From Acanthochlamys bracteata (lineage: Eukaryota; Streptophyta; Magnoliopsida; Pandanales; Velloziaceae), in assembly GCA_019914995.1 (NCBI GenBank), contig CM034143.1:1862501-1926500 (forward strand): 64,000 bases of DNA. Reading direction: 5' to 3'. The notes under the pieces were generated by a model. That model saw only the letters and a program-made list of their open reading frames with translations. It was not told where the DNA came from and ran no database searches. Shown here one piece after another: positions 3,301 to 51,900 of this stretch (the first letter of the stretch is position 1; each line of letters starts with the position of its first letter). The position numbers were made by a program, and so were the translations under genes.

Positions 3301-6300
3301 GCCTTTTAGATATATTGTTTTTGTTAGTCTATTCATCATTGGAGGCTTCCTATAGCTTAGATTTCATCTGAGTCGACATAAAGGTACGCTGAGTATGAAG
3401 TGTAAAATCCTAGATCTTGGATAAATCTCCTAGGGTTTGCTGGAGCAAAGAGACTTGGGTGCCGGAATCTCAAATAATTAAGATGTGCTAAAGATTCATC
3501 CATTTGTAGCAATGTTAATTCCACTTTGCTAAGTTAATATGGCTCTATTTAAGACTTGTTTTTTCGACTTTCCAGGGAGGGTCAGATATAAGTTTGCATC
3601 TTTTTGGAACAGAAATCACACTTTGAGAGCTTTACAGCGTGCAAAAAAGCATTATTCCACGATGCTAGAAGCTGAGAAACAGGTTTGTGGCTCAACTACA
3701 ACTTCCTAGAAGATGTATTCTTCATATCTCCTTGCGTCTTTTGTTCTTGTTTTACTGGTTTAGTTAGCCGTCCTTTTCATTCCGTAGCTGTGTGGGTCAT
3801 GGCTATACTTTTTGTATGGGCATATCTAGAGTAATAGATTTGGACATAAATTCAGAGAATTTAATGTAAACTACTGGGATGCAAAACCATAAATATGGAA
3901 AACAATATCATGCAATTAACAATTCTTCAAGCTGAGTAGCTTCTTATGGTAATTAACGTAACTTCAATCCATTGCGTACTACAGACCTTAAGCACAGGTT
4001 AAGTTGGTTTTGTAGCTAGTTCCTGTTGTTTAAGGTGTGAAATGCAGACCCCTCCTGCTGTTTTTGGTCTCCATTTACAGCATATTAAACTAGTATAACT
4101 GATAATGCATCTTAACCAATTCCATAATTAAAGAACAAAATTTAAGTGTTTACGTACAAATTGTGGTTTTAGACTTATAGGAAGCAGGTAAGTTATGCAT
4201 TCACTAGAAAGCACCTTTTTACCTTAATTTTTTCATTAGAAAAATCTTTTAGAAAGAAAAACGGTGATCTAATATTGCAGCTGCAATGTTATGTTAATGG
4301 TGAGGGCAGAGTTAGTCTTAGGATTTATTAGGTTTGGGCTAGAATGAAGGTTGTGGCTGTTAGTTTAGCTATTTTGAGTAGAAGGAAGAAGGCGGCATTA
4401 GAAAGTTTTAGATTCTTTTTCCTAAAATAATGACATTGGGGTTTCCCTTTTCCAAACCCATTTATCCATGTTTTTGGGATATGTTTGCCATCTGCGTGTG
4501 TGGTGTTCTATGATTGGATAGGTTTTCTTATCTTATGATTTCTCTTTTCCTATTTCTTTACTTCCTCAAGCACTACGCGTGCAAAATTTGACGTAATATT
4601 TGTTATTTATATCAAGGAGTGTAAATTTTATTGTTATCTCAGTTATTTGAAAAGAGTGTTTGAGAGGATGTAATCCTCAAGAAAATGCACTTAAGTTTAG
4701 TTACCACGGGAATCACTATGTTTGCGACTGACTTTTTGAATGGATATTGCTTATGGTAACTTGTTTCTCTCAAGGTTTACAAAATATGCTAATTCTGATG
4801 CAATCTAGTTGATCCATATTGGGATCAGTCTACTTGCTCAAGATTTTTAACTGATTTATCTGTTTCTTTGATATTCCAACACTTTTAAAAAAGTGTGACA
4901 ACCAGTCACTCACAGGTCCCAACATTTTATTTTTGAAATTTACAAAGCACTCCCATGTGGTTCACGTAACTGCTTTTCATTTCATTAAATATTTTAGAAC
5001 TGATATTAAATTTTATAAAAAGAATACGAAGAAAAATATTGGCTAATTATTGAAATATAATTTACATATTTTTTTAAGCCAAAATTCATGATACATGAAC
5101 AGTATAGTCTGTTGATTTACAATAGAAATGTTGTTTATGATGTATTATTTGAAGTATTAGTATTTCTTTAACAAATCTAGTCAGTCTGATTTTTTGATAT
5201 CAATACTTTTTAGTTAGCCGATCCGATCTCTATGCCGATTTGTCGAAATTTGATTTATTTATCTACTTTTGAATGCTAATATTTAACTTCTTAAATGTAA
5301 AAACATTACTAGCCCTTTTTCGTTTGATAGTGACAACTTAGCAATTAGCTTGATGTCCCGACTTGCGGCATATTTAATAATTGTAGTCTGCAATAGAGTT
5401 AGTGTGTGTGATGTTTTTTGAAAGTAAAGTGAGTTTCTGTTATATTCTATCGGTGTTATAGAACAGTCATTCGGCTACAATATTATACATGATATGCTAG
5501 GCTGTCAAAGGTCAAGATGTATATAAACGTAACGAAAATGAGAATATTAAAATGGATGTGTAGGTATACCAGAGTGGACAAAATACAAAATGAGAATATA
5601 CGCCAATAAATAATTGTCACTTTGATTGAGGACTAGTCAAGAGAACATAGATTTAGGTGGTTCGGACGTGTCTTGCGCAAGCTAAAAACGATACAGTGCA
5701 TGAGTGTGATGTGTTTCTATTAAAACACTTTTAGGAAAAAAAAGAGATAAAATAAATTAACTTGTCCAGAGTAGTGGCGAAGGATTTAGAAGAATCAGAT
5801 CTTTCACTGAAATTGGTTTATAATTGAACGGATTGAAAAAAGGGAATTCATGTAGCCGACCAACTCAAATGGGATAAAGGCTTAATTTGTTGTTGTTGTA
5901 TTAATTTTTTAACCCTTTACAGCCTGCTCCTGGTTCACAGTTCTAGGACTTCCCGTGGCCAAAAGAAATGTTTATTTATTTATTATTTTGACTTGTTGGA
6001 TTGTAGGAAAGAGCTCAATCAGCATTGCGAGCAAGCAGAAGTGGAAAGCAGCTAAAAGTTCCTGAAACTGGTGGTACTAATGCTGCAAAGTTCCAACCTT
6101 TCCTAAAAGAGGAAGTTCTTGTCGGAATTGTTAATGTACGTGCATGGGTTATTGATTTGAGGATTTATCGACTTCGTTTTTGACAAACACTTTATTGAAC
6201 TTCCAGGATCCTTTCCCATGTACGGCAGAAGAATTCTTCTCCATCTTGTTGAGTGATGATTCAAATTTTGTTTCTGAGTATCGTTCAGCAAGAAAAGATT

Positions 6301-25249: not shown

Positions 25250-26733
25250 TTTTCCGATTTAAGCACTTCATAATTAACTTTTCCAAATACTGGCCACTCA
25301 GTTCACGTTCGGTTAAAGCTTTTAGAGGAAAATATAATTTTTAAAATAAAGGTATATGTTTGTAAATAAATAAGGATCTCTATTACAAAAAAAACAAGAA
25401 TAACAGAGCGTTGCTGTACTAGTAGTGTCAGAAAAAAAAAAGAAGTGAAGAGAGAGAGAGAGCACATTCGGTTTGCGTGCGTATGTTGCTCTGTTATTTC
25501 AACTCTGCCACTCCAATCAGTTCTTTTAAATTATTTTTAGTTATATTTTCTCTTTTAAAAAGAGAAGAAAAAATTGCAGTTGGGTGATAAGATTAGAAAA
25601 ATGCAAGGTTCTCGCGGATCAATGAATTATATGAATTAATGATTTCGTGATTCTCGCGCGAATCGTATAACAAAACAAACTGCTGGCTCTTTGATTGATT
25701 TAATCTCCAGATTTATTTATCAACCTTCATTTGCTTTTGGGTTTTCTTCTGTGATCTCCGGCGGATGTCTTCAGGTGCGTTATATTTGTTAGTCTTTGGT
25801 TAAATGTCTTATCTTTTAACGAAATTCCTTTGTTGGATTTTGTTTGCGGAGTGTTTAGTTGTTTTATTTGAGTTTTAATTTGTTCCTGGATAAGTGGGTT
25901 TCTTTTGTTCTTTTTTTTTTGAAAGGTTTTGGGTAAATGACTTCTTTTTGGAGGTGGGTTTTCGTTGTTTTTATTTTTTTTTCTGGGGATTTCTTTGTTG
26001 TTTATTCGAGTTATAATTCATTCTTTTTTCTTCTTTTTGGGAATTTGGGTTCCTCATTAAACCGGTTTTACTGAAGTTTATATCAAGCATTTTAATTGTT
26101 CTTTTTTTTTAGGATTTTTTTGGTTGTTCAGTTTATTTATTTTTGATTCATTTTCTTCATTCTGAAGTGGACTCTCGTCTTGTTTTCTTGTTTTCGCAGG
26201 TCTTTTGATTTGTTTCTTCGTTTAAACACTTAGATGTCTATGTAGTCACAACCTTATAATATTCCACTTTTCAATCTATTTCTGAATTTTTTGCTTGTAG
26301 GCTTTGGTCCCCTTTGAGGAGAAATAGTCTTATCTAACTTGATGACTTTAATTTTTTCTTTTGTCATTTTAATTAAATCACAGTGCTGGCGAAGATGTGC
26401 TAATTTGTTTCGCGTAATTTGAAATTAGCAACAGTCTGTTTTGCATTGTTGTGATAGCATCAAAAGGTGTTACAGCTTGTCTCTTATAATTTGATGGTGT
26501 TAATCTCAGATATCATGGTCTTCACACTTTATTATGTTTACTTTTTATTGCGGAAATTAAATGTAACTGGATTTCTGACTGCATCATTATATGGTGGATG
26601 ACATCTAGAATGCGTTTGTTCTCACGCTATCTCATATTATCTAAATCACTATGTATGCCGTCTTGTTCTTTGTTTGTTGCTGTTTACATAATTACAATAT
26701 ATTTTGTTTGTAGTGTAGTAGAGGACAACCCAG
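25250..26733 (+). promoter_or_regulatory. Promoter, leader exon, leader intron and uORF of the DUF936 gene
   Basis: A GA-rich stretch at 25447-25462 and leader sequence run up to a donor after 25774 (CTTCAG/GTGCGT). The matching acceptor is TTTGTAG at 26711-26713, giving a T-rich 939-bp leader intron just 20 bp before the ATG. An ATG at 25601 opens a 12-codon upstream ORF (MQGSRGSMNYMN, stop 25637-25639) if transcription starts upstream of it. The splice sites are clear; the transcription start is not. Confidence 0.6.
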
Positions 26734-29700
26734 ATGGCTGCATTGATTCCCGGTGTCCTTCTCAAGCTCCTTCAGCACATGAACACTGATGTCAAGGTTG
26801 CTGGTGAGCACCGTTCATCCCTCCTTCAAGTTGTTAGCATTGTTCCTGCCCTTGCAGGAGGAGAGCTGTTCTCTAACGAAGGCTACTATCTCAAAGTCTC
26901 TGATTCGTCACATGCAACGTATGTATCTCTGCCCGATGAGCATACCGATCTTATTTTGAGTGACAAGATCCAATTAGGCCAGTTCGTCCATGTTGACCGA
27001 CTTGAGGCAGCTACCCCTGTGCCCATTCTAAGGGGAGTAAGGCCAGTACCTGGCCGTCACCAATGTGTTGGCAGTCCTGAGGATATTGTTGCCACTCGCT
27101 CATTGGGCTTCTTGAATACTGAGAAATCACAGATTCTTAATGGCTCCAAGGAAGATAATAAATCGAGTTTAGGAAAAGAGAAGAGTAGATCTAACAAGTT
27201 AAATGGGACAACTAAAGCAGAGGATTTTGAGAAGAAGAGGTTATCAGTGAGTCGAACAAATTTGTTGCAGCTGAAGACAACTTCCATTGGCATAGCGGAC
27301 AAGAAAGTTACTGCAAGCTCTAGATCCAATTCCATGAATTCAAGGTCCATACCCAGTTCACCAACTAGTTGCTATTCACTTCCTGTAACTTTTGAGAAGT
27401 TCTCCAACGGAGTCAAGAAGCAAACAAATATAAGAGGGGTAGAGAAATCGGCTACCCCAAGGGTAGGTTTGTTGGAGAAAGCAGCTTCTGTTCTGAAATC
27501 ATCATCGTCTGGAAGGAAGTCATCTGCTGGAAATTCGATAGGAAGCGTGGTATCTGAATTTGATTTTGGAGGCAAAGCTCTTAGGAGGAGCTGGGAGGGG
27601 CTTACAGATATAAAAGGGAGGAATAACCATAACGCAAGGGTTTCCAAGCTTGAAACCAAGCCAGAGGCTCGAAGCACATCTGTAAGTTCGCCATTTTTTC
27701 CCCTTGAGATTTTAGTTGGTTGGATTAGTGCCATGGTACTGTTTGATGTATTGGAACATGGGCACTGTCAATGATGACCTCATTGACGAGCTGGTTTGCT
27801 TGTTTTACGTGGGTATTGGAAACGTATTTATCATCCCGTATTAGTTACAACACTGTCTTTCTTTGTTTATTCTGATCTCTTGTGTCCATGTTGCTGAATG
27901 AGATTTGAGTAGTTGTTTTGGAGCATCAACGTGCATGACACTATCTGCTCCTGGTGTTAAAGCAATGCAGTATCTTCTTTTGGCTCTCTGAAAGTTAATT
28001 CATGCTGATTGATGCAATGCAACCATAGTCAGTCCACATAATTTGTTCTAATTTGTTCTATCTTTTTGATGTTGTTGTAGGCCCCCCGTAAAAAGCCTAC
28101 TGCAAGTGAGAAACAATTAGATAAGGAGGAGAACAGGCCACAAAATCCCTTGAAGAAATCTAATTTTACTGCAACTCCAGAAATTCCGGATAAGTCAAAT
28201 AAACAGCGCTCTCCTGTTGTTAAGAAGACTGCTGATGCCACCAATTCAACGAGTGTTGGCAACTTAATCAAAGTTGCTCCAAATAGCAAGAAGTGGACAG
28301 ATGGCAGTATTTCTTGGTCGTCATTACCTTCGTCTCTTGCAAAACTTGGGAAGGTAATACCTTTAAGTTATCTTAATATAGAGTTAGATCTTGCAAAAAG
28401 TTGACATTGTAACAGATGCTTGAATTGCAGGCAATGATTCACTTTATTTTGAATTGCCAAGAGTCAATGTCACTTTCCTTTCGTATATCTTCTACTGCTA
28501 CTTTCTATTTTCACCATTTCGAGTATTGATGTAATGATTGTCTGCATTGTTCAGTAAGTCATTTGTGTTGACAATTATTTCTTCGATCTGTTATTCCAAA
28601 TTCTAGGAGGTGCTTAAGTACAGGGATGCAGCACAATTGGCAGCTATTGAGGCTATACAGGAAGCTTCCGCTGCAGAGAGCTTAGTTTGTTGCTTAAGGT
28701 AACTCTTGAGCTTTATTGTAGCAACTCCTATAGGAAGCTTTGTTTAACCTAAAACTTTGCTCAAGGAGAAATTATAGCCATGATAACTCAATTATATCAG
28801 TAAAACTAACATACACATTATTATATTGAGAATGCTGCACTAGTTGCTTCAGTTCTTGTATGAAGGTCACTTGCCTATTGTTGGACTAGCTTGCACATGC
28901 TTGAATTCAATGCACCATATTTTTGGAGTATCTTTACCAAATGCCTACATGATACCTCCTGCCCAAGGACCTCTGTGTCCCTTACGACACAGTCTTCTTC
29001 TCATTTCAGTGGAGCAATTTATATTAAAAAGCATCTTTCGGCAAAGAGCTTTTAACTAATAAAGATTATTTTTGCTAAAGAATTTATTAAGTACTTTCAC
29101 TTGTAAATCTTTTACAATTTTCTTATCTTCAAAAAAGTAGAGAAATTAACTTTTCTTATCTTTTGCAATAGCGTATGAAAATGTGTGAACCTGGTTGAAT
29201 AAGGTTTGGTTGTTATATATTTGGTGAGTCTTAGTCAATTAATGCAGGTTGGCAGCGAGCCTGCTTGAGTCATTTAGCATGTGGTTGCAAAGCTGAAAGC
29301 AACTTTGCCCATCCCCATTTCATTTTCCTTTACACAGGCATACTGCTCCACAAATTTTGTTGTTATTGTTGGCTCTATGAGATACTTCTCTGGTCTATTT
29401 GACGCCTTATCATGTCCTTTGGTGCTTAGCCTGACTTGAATACGTTAAACGTTAGGTACTCTATTTGTAAACTTTTGTTGAAGGGTGTAAGATCTTATCA
29501 ATAAGCATCCAACACTATTGAAAAAAGAATGCTTAAGTTGAGGTTTTTTTTCAACATGTGATGGGGTAAATTTTAGGTTAATTATTGGCTACATAAAGCG
29601 TGCTGGCTGGTTGTGTATTCAAGAGGAAAATCGTGTATGAGTTAACTAGCCAATCCAATATTTATTTCATGTATATATTTTTACTTCGCATTGCTAGCCT

Positions 29701-30616
29701 TGCTACATGAATCATTTACTTAAACTGACTGACTTTAATGTTGCGATGCAGCATGTATGCAGAATTAAGCTCTTCTGCCAAGGAGGACAGCCCTCAAACC
29801 TCAGTGGAACAGTTCCTTGCCCTATATGCTACCGTAAATCAGGCAGGTTTAGTTGCTGACTGTCTTCTCCAAACACAGCCATCACGAGTTGATGAATCAG
29901 GACAGCCTCCTGATGGTGAACCATCAATCTCAGAGGAAGCCCTTATGCTCTTGTCTGAGAAGCGCAAGCGTGCGACGTCATGGGTAAATGCTGCTCTTGC
30001 AACGGAGCTCTCCCCCTTTATACTGTATAGCCACAAGCCCCTTCAATCAACTGCTGTTTCAACGCCTCAGTCAATGGCAGTAGTTCTTGAAAATTCCTCA
30101 AAAGCTGGAAGCTCAAAGCCCTCCTCACAGAGTAAACCTCGGGCATCCTCTGCCACCCCTTCTGTTAATAAGACATCCACTTTGACAGCACCAAGAAGCA
30201 AGCTGCGGTGTTCAACACCTCCAACTCCTCCCTCAGAATGGACGCGTGGGGGAGGTCTGGATGAGGGGACTATATTAGCAAAGGCCTTGGAAGAGGAGGC
30301 AAGAGGTTGGTTTTTGGGGTTTGTCGAGAGGTTTTTAGATGCTGATGTGGTCTCATCTGGTTTGTCAGATAGAGAACAGGTGGCAGGCATGCTTTCACAG
30401 CTAAAGAAAGTGAATGACTGGCTGGAGGTTACTGCTAGGAGAGGAGGTGAGTCAAGAGAAGGGGAGGGAAGTAAGGGGGACCAAGAGGGAGTTCCGGTTG
30501 AAACCATTGAGCGGTTGAGAAAGAAGATTTATGAATACCTCCTTACTCATGTGGAATCAGCTGCTGTAGCACTCAGCAGCAATGGAGGTGGTCATCAAGC
30601 CAATATCAAATGGTGA
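26734..30616 (+). CDS. DUF936 family protein, CORD-like (4 coding exons)
   Basis: Coding exons: 26734-27681, 28081-28353, 28607-28698, 29752-30616; 725 residues. The N-terminus [20 protein letters not shown] is the signature start of plant-specific DUF936 proteins, and residues 1-120 form the conserved block ([56 protein letters not shown]). Residues 120-400 are Ser/Lys-rich, basic and probably disordered. A second conserved block spans the exon 2-4 junctions ([56 protein letters not shown]). From memory, Arabidopsis CORD1, a cortical-microtubule protein that disorders microtubules in xylem vessels, is a DUF936 member; microtubule binding is inferred from family only, and I cannot tell which paralogue this is. 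A leader intron precedes the start. Reading past the donor at 27682 would add an intronic tail, so the spliced form is preferred. Confidence 0.87.
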
Positions 30617-34289: not shown

Positions 34290-34584
34290 GGGCGTGTTTT
34301 CAATCGCTCGTAACTTCACTCTTCCGTCAGATCTTGAGTTTTCAGCAGTTCATATGTTTCAATTATATAAGGAACTCAAAATTCCACTTTCACATGCGAA
34401 GCTTCAGTTTCAACTTTCTTATTTGTATATTTTTCAATACAACTATATTTTTCAATTTTCAATATACTTTCAAAACCTATTGAAACACAAATACTGAACT
34501 CTACTTCCACTTCATTTTTCAAAAAACTCTACTTCCTAATTTTTACTTTCACGAAACTCAGTTACGGGTATTTGAAACACGCCC
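34290..34584. mobile_element. Tourist-like MITE (PIF/Harbinger type) with TAA target duplication
   Basis: The left end GGGCGTGTTTTCAATCGCTC and right end GGGTATTTGAAACACGCCC are inverted repeats. TAA flanks both sides (34287-34289 and 34585-34587), the usual PIF/Harbinger 3-bp duplication. At 295 bp it has no transposase. The short open frames inside are not genes. Confidence 0.8.
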
Positions 34585-35274
34585 TAAAAGTCTGAAGAAA
34601 GAAGTTAATAGTCATTGGGCCATATTCTTGAGAGTTTGACTTAATACTCTTGTACTGGTATTTAATAATTATTGGGACTTTATTGTAATTATAGTTGTAA
34701 AACTCTACTCAGCAATCGATCCGAATTTATGTTCGGGTCAACGGATTGACCCGCCGGGTCAGAACTAGTAGACAGTGAAGGCAAGCAGGCAGGGAGACAA
34801 GTAGGCTTGTAGGCAGGCACTCATATTTCTACCGTAAACTAAACAACATAGAAGTGTTACTAAAATTCTGATAGTCGAATATTGTTAAGAGCATATGTAA
34901 GATTAAAAGTAAAATAATTTTCTTCCTATCGCTGCTCAAGGAGCTAGCAGAGATTTTACAAAAGAGTGAGTAAATCAATTGTTTATTTCATAAGGAGATC
35001 AAAACAGATTCTCTTACAAAAACATACATACTTCTCTTTCAGTTGCCCTTGAATTATGCCCTATTCAAGTCGAAAAAAACCAGCAACCACTACTGAATTA
35101 TTCCTAAACTAGTCACGATCATCTATCTTAAAACAGAGAAACTAATAAAGAAGCTACAAAATGTCAAAAACTCATCAGCCTAGTTATCCAAAAGCTGCAG
35201 TAGTAAATTACTCAACCAATTCACATGCTCGATCAAGTGAAAAGAGGCTTAAAGGTGGAAAAAATTGACTACTT

Positions 35275-35420
35275 GTATCTTTGTTTGCCTTAGTTGGATT
35301 TAACTTCTGCCTGGTACTTAGTCTTTGCAGTATTGAGCAGTACAACACGGTGGTGCTCACCAGCGCTCCTACAGCTCCTGTTGTCGCCTCCGATAACGAT
35401 TCCCAATCCAATCCCGACAT
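35275..35420 (-). pseudogene. Captured first exon of a peroxisomal adenine nucleotide carrier (PNC-like), frameshifted
   Basis: From ATG 35418-35420 on the minus strand the frame reads LDWESLSEATTGAVGALVST and then TVLY, matching the N-terminus of plant PNC1/PNC2 (first helix of a mitochondrial-carrier-family protein importing ATP into peroxisomes). Right after TVLY the expected PLDTCKTKYQAEVKSN continues in another frame (LNTAKTKYQAEVKSN), so a small deletion broke the frame, and a stop codon follows in that second frame. Upstream, 35421 to about 35560 looks like a 5' leader (TTG-rich) copied with it. Only exon 1 is present. It lies wholly within the hAT-like element, so it is read as a transduplicated, dead fragment. 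Confidence 0.7.
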
Positions 35421-35763
35421 CTCAACTCAATTCTCGAAGTTAAACCCCCTAACAATAACAATAACAAAAGTTAAATCCACCACCTAACCCTCTTAGAACA
35501 AGAATCTAAATTTCTAGACAACTTTTATGCTTTGAAGAATTTTGAGTTTGTGAAATTGTTGAGAATTGCTGGACAGACTCCGTCGAAGAATTGGAAGGAT
35601 TCGAACCAATCCCATTAGATGGCCGGCGAACAGAATGAGCACAGCAACTGGTACGGCGAGCAGAACCGAGTAGCGAAGCTCGATTGGACGTAGAGACTGG
35701 AGCTCAAGTAAAATTAGGGCTCAGACTTGGGAGCTGTGAGCTGTGATTAAACTTGAGCACCAA

Positions 35764-35960
35764 CAGCGTGACGTCGGAGGACTGGAGTCGGCGTTGCAGC
35801 GGTGATCAAGCTCGGACGAAACGAGGATGGAGCCACGGCCGAAGAAAGAAAGGAAATAGGAACCAGTGTGATGTCAGAGGAGTGGAGCTGGCGTTGCAGC
35901 GGCGATCAAGCTCCGATGAAATGGCGATCGAGAGCTCGGACGAACGGGATCGAGCAGCAG
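35764..35960. repeat. Two-copy tandem duplication, about 100-bp unit, inside the hAT-like element
   Basis: AGCGTGACGTCGGAGGACTG near 35764 recurs as AGTGTGATGTCAGAGGAGTG near 35864. GGCGTTGCAGCGG followed by TGATCAAGCTC (or CGATCAAGCTC) is shared by both. The copies differ at roughly one base in eight. Confidence 0.75.
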
Positions 35961-36197
35961 CGAAAGGAAAATGGGAAAGAGTCCAGATGTTTAACCTAAC
36001 GAGCTAACATGTTAATATATTTTTTTTAAAATTTCGGATGACCCGTTCAGCCGGGCAACGATTTAACTGTGAACCATCTAGATTGACCCGGGTCAGTCCG
36101 GGTCGACTGCATTAACGAGTTTATTACTAATCCGGACAGATTTACGCGCCGAGTCGGCGATTTTCGGATCGACCCGGTCCGAGTTTTACAACTAAGG

Positions 36198-38050
36198 TTG
36201 TAACTCATCTATGAAGTTTACCGGGGAAACTAAGGCATTCAAACATTTGTTTGAATGATGGTGAAGCATATTTTCACCTTAACCATATTTTATTTTTGTT
36301 TCATTAAGAAGAGAAAAAGAAAAATGGTGGATACTCATGTTTTATTTCACGATTTTTAATGGTGAAATACGTACCCACCGATTTGGTGTGCACGTATGGA
36401 AAAAAAAAAAAAGCAAATTTATTTTATCTTTTATTTTTTATTTTATTTTATAATTATTTAATATTTATTTTAATTAATAGATGCTAATTATAATTTATAA
36501 TTTTTATATTTATTTAATTTTAATTAATTTTAGTTGGTAGAAAAATAATGAAACTATATGATCAAAATTTTTAATTTAATTTTATTAAATTATATCAAAT
36601 ATTAATAAAAATTAAATTAATATAAAAACTTAATCTAAAAATTATATTAATAAAGTTAATTCAAATATATTAATTAAATTAGTTTAAAGTTATATTAATA
36701 TAAAGTTATATTAATATAAATAAAAAAGATATTTAAGTTTTTTATAAAAAATTTACTTTCGTTACTCATTCATTTATCTATCTAGTCAAGTATAGTTAAT
36801 TTGTTACCCTTATTTACATCCAAATATTATAAAATTAAATTCCTATCCGTCTTTTTATTATTTTTTATCTATATTGTTACTCTTAATTTCTTAATGATGT
36901 ATGTAAATATACCGTAAGTTAGCTGGGTTCAGTGAGAATAGCATTTGGGAAAGCGTTTCCCAAACGCTGCTATTCAATATTTCATTTTATACTTTTTAAT
37001 ATATATTTTATAATTATAAAAATTTATTTAAAAATTTAGAAAATATAGAAAAATTTTACGTAGTAAGATCTTTTTATTATATATTTTAGTTATTTTTTTG
37101 AGGTAAAAAAAGTAGAGCTATTTTTCAAAAAGAACAAAAGTATTATGTATTTTAAAAAATCTCCATATCATAAGCACTCCATTTCATAAGCTCCATTTCT
37201 TAAGTGTACATGTAGATCATAATTTGATGAACTCTTTAGTCAAGATTGTTGTGTGTATATTATTCTGATTCTAGTAAAAATATCATACTCAAGCTGAATT
37301 TGAATCACGACTAAATCTCCTCTTAAATCTATAAAATGATTATTTTCACTCGGATCAGGATCAGCAGCAATCTAGTCGGCTGTTCTTATAAGACTCTTCT
37401 GTTCTGCTCTCTGTCATGCTGTCCAATACTTGATCGATTTTCGTACTATGCTCGATATAAAATTATTATAAAACAGCTGGCTGGAGTATGACTATTTAGT
37501 ATGAAAATTTTGTAATTTCAATTCCGCACAACTTAAGTTAAACCATTAATCCATCTAATTCATAAATTATAGTTTTTAATATTTATTATCATCAAAATTA
37601 ATTTTGGAATTCTAACATAAACGCTTCTTTTTAAAATTTTTTTATTAAATATATTTTTTAATATATATTTTATATGTATTTAGAAAATTTATTTAAAAAT
37701 TTAGATAGTGTAAAAAAATTTTACATAATAAAATCTTTTTATTGCATATTTTTATTTTTTTTTAAAGTAAAAAAGATAGAGTTTTTTTTTAAAAAAAATA
37801 AAAATATTCTCTATTTCAGAAAAATTTTATTTCATAAACAATTCCAAACGCATACTAAATGTTCGTAAATACTTTTGAAATAAAGTTTTTTAAAGTAATT
37901 TTTTTTAAAAATATGATTTATTTTTTTTATCAAAAATATAAAAATTAATAATAAAAAAATCTTATTACGTAAATTTTTTATATTTTCTAAAATTTTGAAT
38001 AAAATATAAAATTGTTTTAAGAAAAAGCAATGCCAAACAGCTCTTTAAGC
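36198..38050. other. Repeat-filled intergenic stretch
   Basis: Contains the inverted AT-rich element (36380-36905) and three copies of the short MITE-like family at about 36975-37200, 37640-37855 and, in opposite orientation, 37875-38045. 37210-37600 shows no recognisable feature. Confidence 0.5.
36380..36905 (-). mobile_element. AT-rich non-autonomous element, inverted relative to 10695-11330
   Basis: The reverse complement aligns with 10695-11330 over most of its length. The clearest shared blocks are TTACTTTCGTTACTCATTCA near 36757 with TTTATCTATCTA after it, TTACCCTTA, ATATTATAAAATTAAATTCC and TCCGTC. It is non-coding; boundaries are approximate. Confidence 0.65.
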
Positions 38051-47358: not shown

Positions 47359-48944
47359 GATAACACCCCCTTGTAACTGAGATGAGTCTGTATAGTCCAA
47401 TCAAGCGTCATCATTCATTTGTAAAAAGTATCAATTTTTTGGGAAATCATTTACAATCACATGACACTAAGAGCCACTATTGGGAGTTGTTGCCTCACAA
47501 TTAGACAAAGAATGATGATTTATGAAGGATTCCAGAGCAGTGTTCAAAACATAAATGCAAAATTTTTCTGTGAGACCGTTCTTTGCGATGCTCATATTGC
47601 TGCTACTCAATAAGTACTTGATAGTTTGTAGGATCAGAGTTGTAGTAACTATTTTCTTGATAATCTTTGCACGTGTTGTGATGAACATGGTGGACCACCG
47701 GCTTCAACAGTGGGGTGGTTGAACCATCTACATACAACAACTTCTGAAGAGCACCGGCAACTAACTGAACCAACTGTTCTTGGAGTAGAAGGGATTCTTT
47801 CTTCGTTTTGAAGAGTTTTATAAATTTTATTATTGGTTTGATAAATTCTTACTGTAAGTGAAGCAGTTGGAACATGTTCCATGATTGGCGTTGCTTATAA
47901 ATTTCTTTTCATCCAATTTTTATTTTATATTTTTTAGTAAATTTTAAAAATATTTTACAGATTTTTTAATTTAGAAATTATAGAAAATTTTACTTATGAG
48001 ATATTATTATTATTTTTATATAAAAAGAACACATTTTAAAAAGTTTTTAAAATACTTTTTGTTTTAAAAAAAATTTCAAAAACATTTTTTAATATCTCAT
48101 TCTGAACTACAAATAAGTTCATAGAAAATGAAAAATAATTAAATTTGAGAAGATAACTTCAAAACTTTTAATTCGAAATCACTTCTAGTTCTATATATAA
48201 TGAGAAATCAATTAAAATACTATGTATTTTCAAAACTATATTTTATGAATTTTAAAATAAAATACTATGACTTTTTACTTCACCAATAGAAATGATATAC
48301 CATAATATTTTGTTAACCTCTCAGAATTTATTTTCCCAACACTTGCAGAATCCATCTTTTGATATTTTTATCACTTTAAGTGTAAGGTGAACGGTTTCTT
48401 TAGTCTTAGAACAATTGTATTTTTATCACTTAAAATTCAGAATTATATTTTTCTCATAATTCGATTCGGATGTGTATTGTGATCCAAATGACAAGAAAAA
48501 CAATAGCATTTCAGGTTCTAAACTCTAAAGGGTACACCAAAAGAAAAAAAAAAGAAGATAGATAGATAAATGGTTAGACATATTATTATTTGTATTTTTT
48601 TAACCCCTTCCCGTTCATTTTCATATCTACTAGTAACTAACCTTATGATAGTTTTTTTCCTTGCATTTTAATTTGTGCTCAATATCTTATGGCTAGAAAT
48701 ATGTCTGGATTTTGATGCTATTTGTCTACCCTATTGTATTCAAAAATCAAAATTTCAGTTGAATGTTCAAACGGAAATAGAAAATGAAAAGACCTAATTG
48801 TCAAAGATAAAAAATATCGTACTTAATCTTGCAAAACGCCAAAACTTTCATTTCCTTGTGGTTATACCGAGCTGTCTGTGCGCCAAGACAGTTCGCAACA
48901 ACTCCTCAGTCTCGAGTCTCGTAAAAAGTCGCAACTCTCTTTCA
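47359..48944. other. Intergenic between glyoxalase II and SDR-reticulon genes
   Basis: 47359-47890 is 3' flank and probable 3'UTR. 47905-48110 is a copy of the short AT-rich MITE-like family. 48110-48780 is AT-rich with no feature. 48800-48944 is the leader and promoter of the next gene; its frame is open upstream of the ATG but contains no in-frame ATG, so the start at 48945 is used. Confidence 0.5.
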
Positions 48945-51900
48945 ATGTCTGCCGCCGGCGAACCCGGTTCAAAGAATTCAACCGATTCCTCTGTGGTTGA
49001 ACCGAATCAAACCCAAATCTGCACAGTATTTTATGGGCGGTCTAACTTCATCGGTCGCCATCTTGTTACTGCCCTCCTGAAATCCGAAATCTGGTCCGAA
49101 ATTCGAGTCGCCGACCCGCTTCCAAACCAACCGGTTTCGGTTTGGTCGGAAAAGACTCCGGTTTACTTCCAAACTGACCCGAGTTCTTCACCGTCTGATT
49201 TGATCCTGTCAACCGTGGACGGCGCCAGCGTGGTGTTCTATGTAGTCCCCGTACATGCCGATACTTTGGTGAATGATATGGATTTTCGTGAACTGTATGA
49301 TCTTGTTGTTGGTGGAGTTAAGAATGTGGTGGCGGTTTGCCGTTATTCTGGGGTTAAGAGAATTGTGTTCACCGGGTCCGCTGACGTGGTGTTTGATGGG
49401 ATACATTCGATTGATGGTGCGGATGAGTCATTGCCGTATCCTGAGAAGGTTAGTGTTTTTTGGTTTCTACTGTTTGTGATTTTTAAGTTGTTTATATGAA
49501 AGTTTAGTATGAGTACAATCTTTTGTTTCGATTCATTGTTTCTTTTTTTTTTTTTTTTTTTTTTTTGAGTTCAGTTTTGGTCACTTTTCAGAAGGTTAGG
49601 ACTTGAGGCTTTGATTGTGGTTTCTTAGATTGTATGTTTGAAAATTTAGTTTATGTGAAATCTTTTGTTTGGTGTGTCTTTCTTTAACATTTTGACAAGT
49701 GAATATAATGAAATGGGAAAAGACATTAGAAATTCTTTTTATATAGTAACATTACGACAGAAGACGTATCACCAGCTTTTTGTAATTCAGGAACATCACC
49801 ATCAGACATTCTCAAGTAGATATCTACATAGAAGAATTAGTAGAGTTATAAAAAGTATAAATGATAACTCTCAATAGGCATAAAAAAGACATATCAAGTA
49901 ACAAATTTAAAGACAACTCTCAGCCAGCCGAATTGCTTTGCTAGAAGTGTAAGCAAGTTGAAGATCGGAACTTTTTTGCGTGTTCTTGAAGCATGTGGCT
50001 CGCTCTAGCAACTATCTATTGATCTACCTTTTTTTTCAATCACATATAGGATCTCTCTCAATGTTCTCAATGCCTCTAGCTTTTTAGAGAAATTTTTTCT
50101 TTCATATGGGAAAGCCGGATTCAACCACTATGCCACAACATACTTATTCTGGTGTAACATTTTATCCTGTGTTTCTTTGGCGATTTTAATATAGACCCAT
50201 GTCATGCTTCATTTTTTAATAGCTCCTTATATTTCCTTCTGTGCCATAAACTACTCTTGGCTTATTAGTAGAATCACAAAGCTGTAGTAATAAAATAAAT
50301 CAGTTCTAATCCTTATGGTAATTAAGCAATTATTCCAAAATCTTTCTTCACCTAAAATTTTATGCTACTCTTCTCTACCTTTATCCATTTCGAAAACCTT
50401 TTTGAAATCCATGCTATGGACCAAGAGCTTGCAAGATATTCTTGTGATCATATAAACTCTTCAATGCAATAAAGGGGTAGAAATTGAGTCTACCCAAGAC
50501 GAGTAATCTCAATCCAACATTGTTACTTTCTCAAGTCTCAACCAACTAAGATTTAACTTTTCAACTTAAACAAAAACTATCACTTTAGATGTAGGGATGG
50601 GTGATGCCTTCGCTTGAGACTTTTCTCAATCCTTCATAGCTAGGGCAATGTGCAGCATAAGATTACCAACTACTAATAAAGTAACCTGTAAGCTTATATT
50701 AGATGCATTATCTCTTACCATATGAACCACATTACTAGATTCAACCATTTCAACAATCCTTGTGAATAGCTACAAAAAGTGATAGCATTTATCTAAAGAA
50801 CCCACAAATTTGATAAATGAAATTCCTTTGAGATAATAAAATAAAAAGTTTGCCAATGGATTCTATTTAGTGTCTTTTCGGCATTCACCCACTATAATAC
50901 CATGTGGTTTTACTTCAGTTGAAAATTTTTCTTAGTATCTCTTTAGAAAGTAACTCTTAAAACATGATGATATAGCGTGAGGATCAAAGGATTCTACCTA
51001 GTTAGAAGAGTGCGATGAAGATCTCCTCTCTGAGTGATACATGTTGAATCAACAGCGAAATTACTGAATCCATTGTAAAAGAAAGAATAAGCTTTATTTA
51101 AAGAGAATATTAAAAAACCTAATTGAGCTAATTGCTCGACATATCTTTATATAAGCAAACATACAAAGTTAAGTATCCATAAATAAATTTATTACAAGAA
51201 TGTGTCCATTAAAGAGATCTTTCCAACAACTACTCATGTGTCATGTCACTCCTTGTGGATTGAAAAAGTTATGACTGTTCCGTAGTCAATGCCCCAGTCC
51301 AATGCAAACTGAACACCCGTATTTGAATCAACTTCTGGTAAAATAGCCCTACAGACTATATTTTATGTCAGGCGACAAGAGGGACGTTTGTAACTATAAC
51401 AGTGTATGCTACTTTCTTAACTGTATTCAGTATTCACTAGTGAATTGATAGCGTTTACAAATATTATAAAACCACAATGCCATTGTCATATCAGTATTAG
51501 CCATCTCGCAGGACTTTGCAAACAAGCTCCAACAGTTGGTCGAGTTGGAGCATAGGTACCACCTTAAGCTAAGTTTCTAAGCCAACAACAGTTTTATTTT
51601 TCTTTTTGATAAATTAAAGGAGTATTACCTACTTGAACAGAGCTGTCATAATTGACAATTTCATGAGCTGATGGCTGTGAAATCCCTTAAACTTCATTGC
51701 TATGCATTCTTGTCTTGTGATTTAAGCATAATAATCTTTCTTCTTGCCTGCTTTCAAAAAAATTTTCTTTAAGTTACTCGTGAATGAACAATTTAACTTT
51801 TTGGTGACCTTTTTACATCTATCTATATTTCCTTTCTGCACCTACAAGGTGTTGCTTCATCAAGTTAATTCTGCATGCTGTAAGTTCCTTTTGAGAAAAA

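Follow-up and report, generated by a model that had tools for sequence, protein, structure and literature searches.

A Pack-hAT element of Acanthochlamys bracteata carrying the 5' end of a mitochondrial-carrier-family gene

Plant hAT transposons that carry host gene DNA have been described before. Among the grapevine elements treated in passages of PMC2528002, the Hatvine-6 hATs have a variable interior, often of high identity to exons and introns of the host, and grapevine hATs are flanked by 8-bp duplications. The maize Ds2 and Ds-l4 elements of PMC3260210 are further precedents for gene capture, and that paper suggests that captured DNA is acquired by copying of an ectopic template during gap repair; the same repair route is described for filler DNA in a section of PMC4423477. 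The original prediction for the locus reported here was that a hAT-like element had captured the first exon of a peroxisomal ATP carrier gene, with the comment that capture is less often documented for small hAT-like elements. That comment is too strong, since capture by plant hATs is already documented in the cited passages of PMC2528002, PMC3260210 and PMC8903248.

The window, by which we mean the whole stretch of 64,000 nucleotides that was analysed, is C18:1862501-1926500 of a genome of 195.5 Mb. The element spans positions 34690-36196 of the window, its ends having been set by comparison with other copies of its family, and the predicted interval of 34691-36197 thus identified the element correctly with each end displaced by one base. 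The inverted ends that had been predicted are present as exact 14/14 repeats, TAGTTGTAAAACTC (34692-34705) and GAGTTTTACAACTA (36181-36194). The AT-rich window contains 37 exact inverted 14-mer pairs 0.5-3 kb apart, the element's own pair included, so the 14-bp repeat by itself is not significant, and it is by comparison with its family, rather than by this repeat taken singly, that the locus can be recognized as an element. The family ends are CATAGTTGTAAAA...TTTTACAACTATG, two bases outside the 14-bp repeat; in the window copy the outermost CA reads TA and the outermost TG reads AG. In the account of the superfamily given by PMC4423477, hAT terminal inverted repeats begin with CA, and short terminal inverted repeats beginning in this way are found here at the level of the family.

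The element is flanked by ATTGTAAT (34682-34689) and GTTGTAAC (36197-36204), which match at six of eight positions, as anticipated in the prediction of an imperfect 8-bp target duplication. Duplications were scored in the nine elements for which the fetched DNA included both ends, out of 21 collected stretches, the 12 left out being the donor and 11 elements without both ends. Pooled over the nine, the matches number 66 of 72 positions. At 284 other offsets the mean is 22.7 and the maximum 62, the latter in the adjoining register. The next position matches in two of the nine, so that the match ends at 8 bp. The ends of individual elements were chosen partly by duplication similarity, which makes the scoring mildly circular. 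The individual scores are 8/8 in five elements, 7/8 in two and 6/8 in two. To the left of the element, at 34290-34590, reading by eye reveals the inverted ends GGGCGTGTTT...AAACACGCCC with TAA on both sides, resembling a small Tourist-type (PIF/Harbinger) element.

Full-length copies of the family are about 5 kb long, and one of these, C8:1280090-1285067 (4978 bp), was used as the reference. With the left arm placed at the left, it has a minus-strand frame of 594 codons that matches DUF659 at 1.8e-56; DUF659 is a typical hAT transposase domain. A copy on C6 carries Dimer_Tnp_hAT (4.1e-8, in one of the two pieces submitted). The 8-bp duplication, the CA ends and the transposase domains of the full-length relatives together place the family, judged by its sequence, in the hAT superfamily, and the window copy is a deletion derivative of this real hAT family. 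A Pack-MULE identity is ruled out by the duplication, which is of 8 and not 9 bp, and by the short inverted repeats, which are not Mutator-type ends. Minus-strand frames of at least 250 codons containing the letters CP are kept in four of 20 element stretches, and relatives of this kind may therefore have supplied the transposase. Four left-end copies (three on C19 and C2, plus one on C1) form a sub-group with an interior that is absent from the 4978-bp reference, about 90-98% identical over 1.8-2.3 kb aligned; no match to the transposase-side arm was seen in the three left-end-only stretches on C19 and C2. Wider searches with the right end, in which 40 of 77 and 40 of 133 candidates were scored, yielded numerous matches confined to the last 86-119 bp, which may come from related families, and C11:1270368-1271036 is a possible short family copy of 0.7 kb.

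When the genome was searched with window positions 34900-35530, five matches came from five candidates: three of them are elements, one is the donor and one is exon 1 of a carrier paralogue. Besides the window itself these are C14:4501180-4501815 (94%), C10:6883689-6884312 (89%), C7:6433853-6434375 (86%) and the paralogue's 160 bp on C15 (91%). The donor, which was to be sought by alignment to an intact carrier gene, is therefore located on C10, another chromosome-sized contig, and further copies with the insert exist on C14 and C7; the captured donor segment is C10:6883636-6884312, 93-95% identical to the copies. The donor gene is intact, with five exons, GT-AG introns and 319 codons, and its protein matches Pfam Mito_carr (PF00153) in three stretches at 6e-42, the top-scoring solved relative being an ADP/ATP carrier (3.4e-14). 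The profile match shows only membership of the mitochondrial-carrier family, and the gene is a putative one of PNC1/PNC2 type. The segment comprises the whole of exon 1 (149 bp) with the 137 bp that precede the ATG, and of the 1297-bp intron 1 it includes 391 bp, counted with the CA shared at the left junction.

In the window the carrier DNA forms the middle of the element (about 34820-35523). From left to right there follow on one another the left transposon arm on the plus strand (34690-34817), which matches about 5-83 and 591-640 of the 4978-bp relative with the stretch between them absent; a CA common to transposon and donor (34818-34819), a 2-bp microhomology; and then, all on the minus strand, the 5' part of carrier intron 1 (34820-35272), the complete carrier exon 1 (35273-35420), the leader upstream of the ATG (35421-35523) and the right transposon arm (35524-36196), which contains the first codons of the transposase and the region upstream of them and ends in the repeat at 36181-36194. 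The minus-strand leader and first coding exon had both been predicted correctly; the approximately 390 bp of intron 1 go beyond that reading. The leader is 34 bp shorter than the donor's 137 bp. Exon 1 is 148 bp long instead of 149, reads MSGLDWESLSEATTGAVGALVSTTVLY and is then shifted in frame by a net 1-bp deletion, directly after TVLY as the original prediction had it, and the GT splice donor (35271-35272) is intact. The right arm also contains a 69-bp direct repeat (35764-35832 and 35864-35932, 81% identical, 100 bp apart), which is present in other family members too.

The presence of intron 1 sequence means that the segment was captured from DNA and not from mRNA, and a retroposed carrier copy is ruled out. 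The GC-rich core, which had been taken for the captured DNA, is instead the transposon's own: the arms have 49% GC, whereas the captured DNA has 35.8% and its exon 47.3%. Pack-MULEs prefer GC-rich 5' ends; a GC-driven capture is ruled out here by the 35.8% of the captured DNA. The donor gene region and its protein match the whole window only inside the element (34818-35523), two other matches to the protein being at chance level (E-values of 6.9 and 9.7). The carrier-like segment thus stops within the element's ends, and an intact carrier gene in the window is ruled out. It is extremely improbable that there was no capture at all and that a hAT simply landed in, or beside, a fragment of the carrier gene left by an old duplication. 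Such a reading could appeal to the existence of a carrier paralogue (C10 and C15), but the segment is bounded by transposon arms, its right junction is identical at three places on three contigs, the target duplications lie outside the arms and no donor sequence occurs in the window outside the element. With the host segment wholly inside, the donor elsewhere and more than one copy carrying the same insert, the element is classed as a Pack-hAT, and the predicted capture of a carrier exon by a hAT is upheld.

The elements on C18 (the window copy), C14 and C7, whose duplications score 6/8, 7/8 and 8/8 respectively, join donor to transposon at the same right breakpoint, which points to one capture followed by transposition. 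The C18 and C14 copies also have in common their left junction and a 20-bp gap, together with 60 bp (about 34869-34928 in the window) that the present donor lacks and that were either gained by the element or lost from the donor. The C7 copy keeps a donor-like leader, but the leftmost 198 columns of the captured part are missing from it in the alignment, and its left junction is therefore not comparable. Compared with the donor, all three have a gap of 1 bp and another of 3 bp in common. Among the columns filled in all four sequences, six split C18 and C14 from C7 and the donor and six split the three elements from the donor; private changes number nine in C18, 15 in C14 and 20 in C7, and three more columns fit no single change. 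In a tree of 19 right-arm sequences C18 pairs with C14 (100/99), with C7 beside them at weak support (82/59).

Ungapped identity to the donor is 94.8% for C18 (33 of 636 positions differ), 93.5% for C14 (42 of 642) and 94.5% for C7 (29 of 528). By region, differences from the donor amount to 4/148 in exon 1, 19/385 in the intron and 10/103 in the leader, and the fewer differences in exon 1 are too few for selection to be claimed. The C18 and C14 copies differ at 34 of 702 captured positions and at 65 of 670 positions of the right arm; the disparity is less uneven between C18 and C7 (37/493 captured, 63/627 in the arm) and between C14 and C7 (46/499 and 71/637). A higher density of CG sites in the arm accounts for part of this. 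A-T changes, with each difference counted from both sequences, are also concentrated in the arm (8/691 against 0/904), and since they run the same way as the total load it is possible that the captured part was gene-converted.

The order arm, donor, arm is what a single full-length relative would show if its interior had been exchanged for the donor piece, and the junctions overlap by little: the CA (2 bp) on the left and at most 1 bp on the right. The 4978-bp relative, used as the sole query, had no match within the 9.0 kb surrounding the C10 donor or the 3.7 kb surrounding the C15 donor of the second capture described below. These three observations lead us to favour gap repair on an ectopic template. 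An alternative is that the donor segment lay between two family members inserted close together and that all three moved as one element, as has been proposed for Pack-CACTA and other Pack-TYPE elements; the section of PMC8903248 on this subject proposes such fusion as general for Pack-TYPE elements, hATs included. Against it, the window element contains a single arm of each kind, left and right, in full-length order and no internal copy of an end was seen, and the absence of family sequence around the donors also tells against it, in so far as a single query was used and old flanking copies could have excised. We regard fusion as rather unlikely here and less well supported than gap repair.

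We consider it highly probable that the element is a non-autonomous hAT in which the transposase interior of a roughly 5-kb ancestor was replaced by the 5' end of the carrier gene, and which was then copied and is now decaying. In this ancestor most of the transposase gene would have given way to carrier DNA from another chromosome, namely the leader, exon 1 and the first part of intron 1. This happened most likely, to judge from the junctions, during faulty repair of an excision gap in which the copying strand switched to the carrier gene as template and then returned. The shortened element, with both ends kept, would then have been copied to at least two further places to give the C7, C14 and C18 copies, with transposase presumably supplied by full-length relatives; the C7 copy would have separated first after the capture, and C14 and C18 would have split later.

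The transposase gene of the family lies on the minus strand of the window, as does the carrier exon, and the right arm corresponds to the start region of the transposase gene. A transcript from the right side would thus be sense to the carrier, and the antisense orientation relative to the element, which had been suggested as a source of small RNAs, is ruled out by the transposase frames on the same strand. In this arrangement the start region of the transposase is kept beside the captured leader, and all three copies retain an intact carrier ATG and 5' splice-site GT, which raises the idea of a new chimeric gene that would join the transposase start to the carrier exon under the control of the transposase promoter. 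We find this very improbable, since the transposase frame stops about five codons past the junction in C18 and C14 (SCLEI* and SCLKT*, respectively), the two copies in which it was read to its end, and the carrier frame is open through exon 1 only in C14 (49 full codons, with six amino-acid changes), those of C18 and C7 being shifted. No fusion protein is expected. The insertion interrupts no long reading frame either, as the only stop-to-stop frames of at least 180 codons in the window (26722-27774, 29729-30616 and 48798-49499, all on the plus strand, frames overrunning the ends being left out) come no closer than one that ends about 4 kb from the element.

It might also be supposed that the element has been domesticated as a regulator, with transcripts of the captured exon giving rise to small RNAs that tune the donor carrier gene. 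Transitions do dominate, making up 27 of the 34 differences between C18 and C14 in the captured part, and most substitutions are transitions at C or G, as would be expected of DNA that is methylated and silenced; methylation is here presumed from the pattern of changes. The exon, however, is sense to the transposase gene, two of the three exon copies are frame-shifted and the third is altered in sequence, and conservation above the donor's own could not be demonstrated, so that we think a regulatory role quite improbable. No function is indicated for the element, which under the favoured account of gap repair and spread would now be without a plausible protein and decaying mainly by transitions at C and G.

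The family has made a second capture. The 658-bp interior of the short element C13:7395827-7397784 is 97% identical to C15:6938205-6938856. It corresponds to the 5' portion of a different gene, beginning near codon 13 in exon 1, running through intron 1 and covering most of exon 2, and like the carrier exon it is sense to the transposase. The structure of this C15 gene was read by eye; the first 72 residues of its product match Pfam EMC6 below the curated cut-off (21.7 against 23.3 bits), and a Rab5-interacting-type protein is its putative identity. In the right-arm tree the C13 element is placed elsewhere with good support (99/98), which makes its capture independent. Six short copies have both ends in the fetched DNA (C18, C14, C7, C13, C15 and C19), and four of them contain host gene DNA from two independent events. 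The C15 copy (C15:5793726-5795947) was rejected as a third capture, its 473-bp filler matching C17:3131498-3131973 inside another family member as well as further places, and the C19 copy holds about 57 bp of unplaced filler. Both captured genes have similar sequence on a partner contig (C10:6.88 Mb with C15:6.05 Mb, and C15:6.94 Mb with C10:7.71 Mb); the spacing on the two contigs agrees (0.83 and 0.89 Mb), a pattern like that of an ancient block duplication, and both donors lie in this one pair of blocks.

The breakpoints of the independent internal deletions in the short copies are clustered. In three of the four short lineages the right breakpoints, taken as alignment ends, fall within 25 bp of one another at reference positions 4291, 4308 and 4315, the C19 copy restarting at 4183, and in three of the four the left breakpoints fall at about 618-640 of the reference, in a GCAGGCA-rich stretch. 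This could reflect a capture hotspot just inside the transposase gene that places host 5' ends in sense behind the transposase promoter and so repeatedly generates chimeras of promoter and host exon, but the sense orientation shared by the two captures is no evidence of bias, since chance gives it in half of such pairs, and we hold a hotspot of this kind to be distinctly unlikely.

Set beside the systems described in plants, the element is a clear instance of a known process, real and ordinary. As far as the description in PMC2528002 allows the families to be set side by side, Hatvine-6 is likewise a hAT family with host gene DNA inside, and the 8-bp duplication is that of grapevine hATs; Hatvine-6 has transposase coding sequence beside the variable region, whereas here the transposase gene is cut to its start. 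The maize Ds2 elements (for example Ds2-22), in the relevant part of PMC3260210, resemble it as internally deleted derivatives of an autonomous hAT filled by exons and an intron from another chromosome; they differ in that Ac/Ds ends are 11 bp, while this family has CATAGTTGTAAAA ends and a DUF659 transposase and its filled element is present in three copies. The maize Pack-hATs in the section of PMC8903248 that treats them share the non-autonomous hAT structure, the 8-bp duplication and the gene-derived DNA, but that source favours fusion of neighbouring insertions, and the junctions here better fit a filled internal deletion. Pack-MULEs, as characterized in a passage of PMC4858842, similarly capture gene fragments; they belong to another superfamily with 9-bp duplications (PMC4423477, in its treatment of that group), in contrast to the 8-bp duplication, short ends and captured DNA of no high GC content seen here. 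What this locus adds is a well-resolved Pack-hAT, with the donor located, the steps ordered and a second independent capture in the same hAT family, and thus a useful small case of how cut-and-paste elements pick up pieces of genes, which leaves the general picture as it was.
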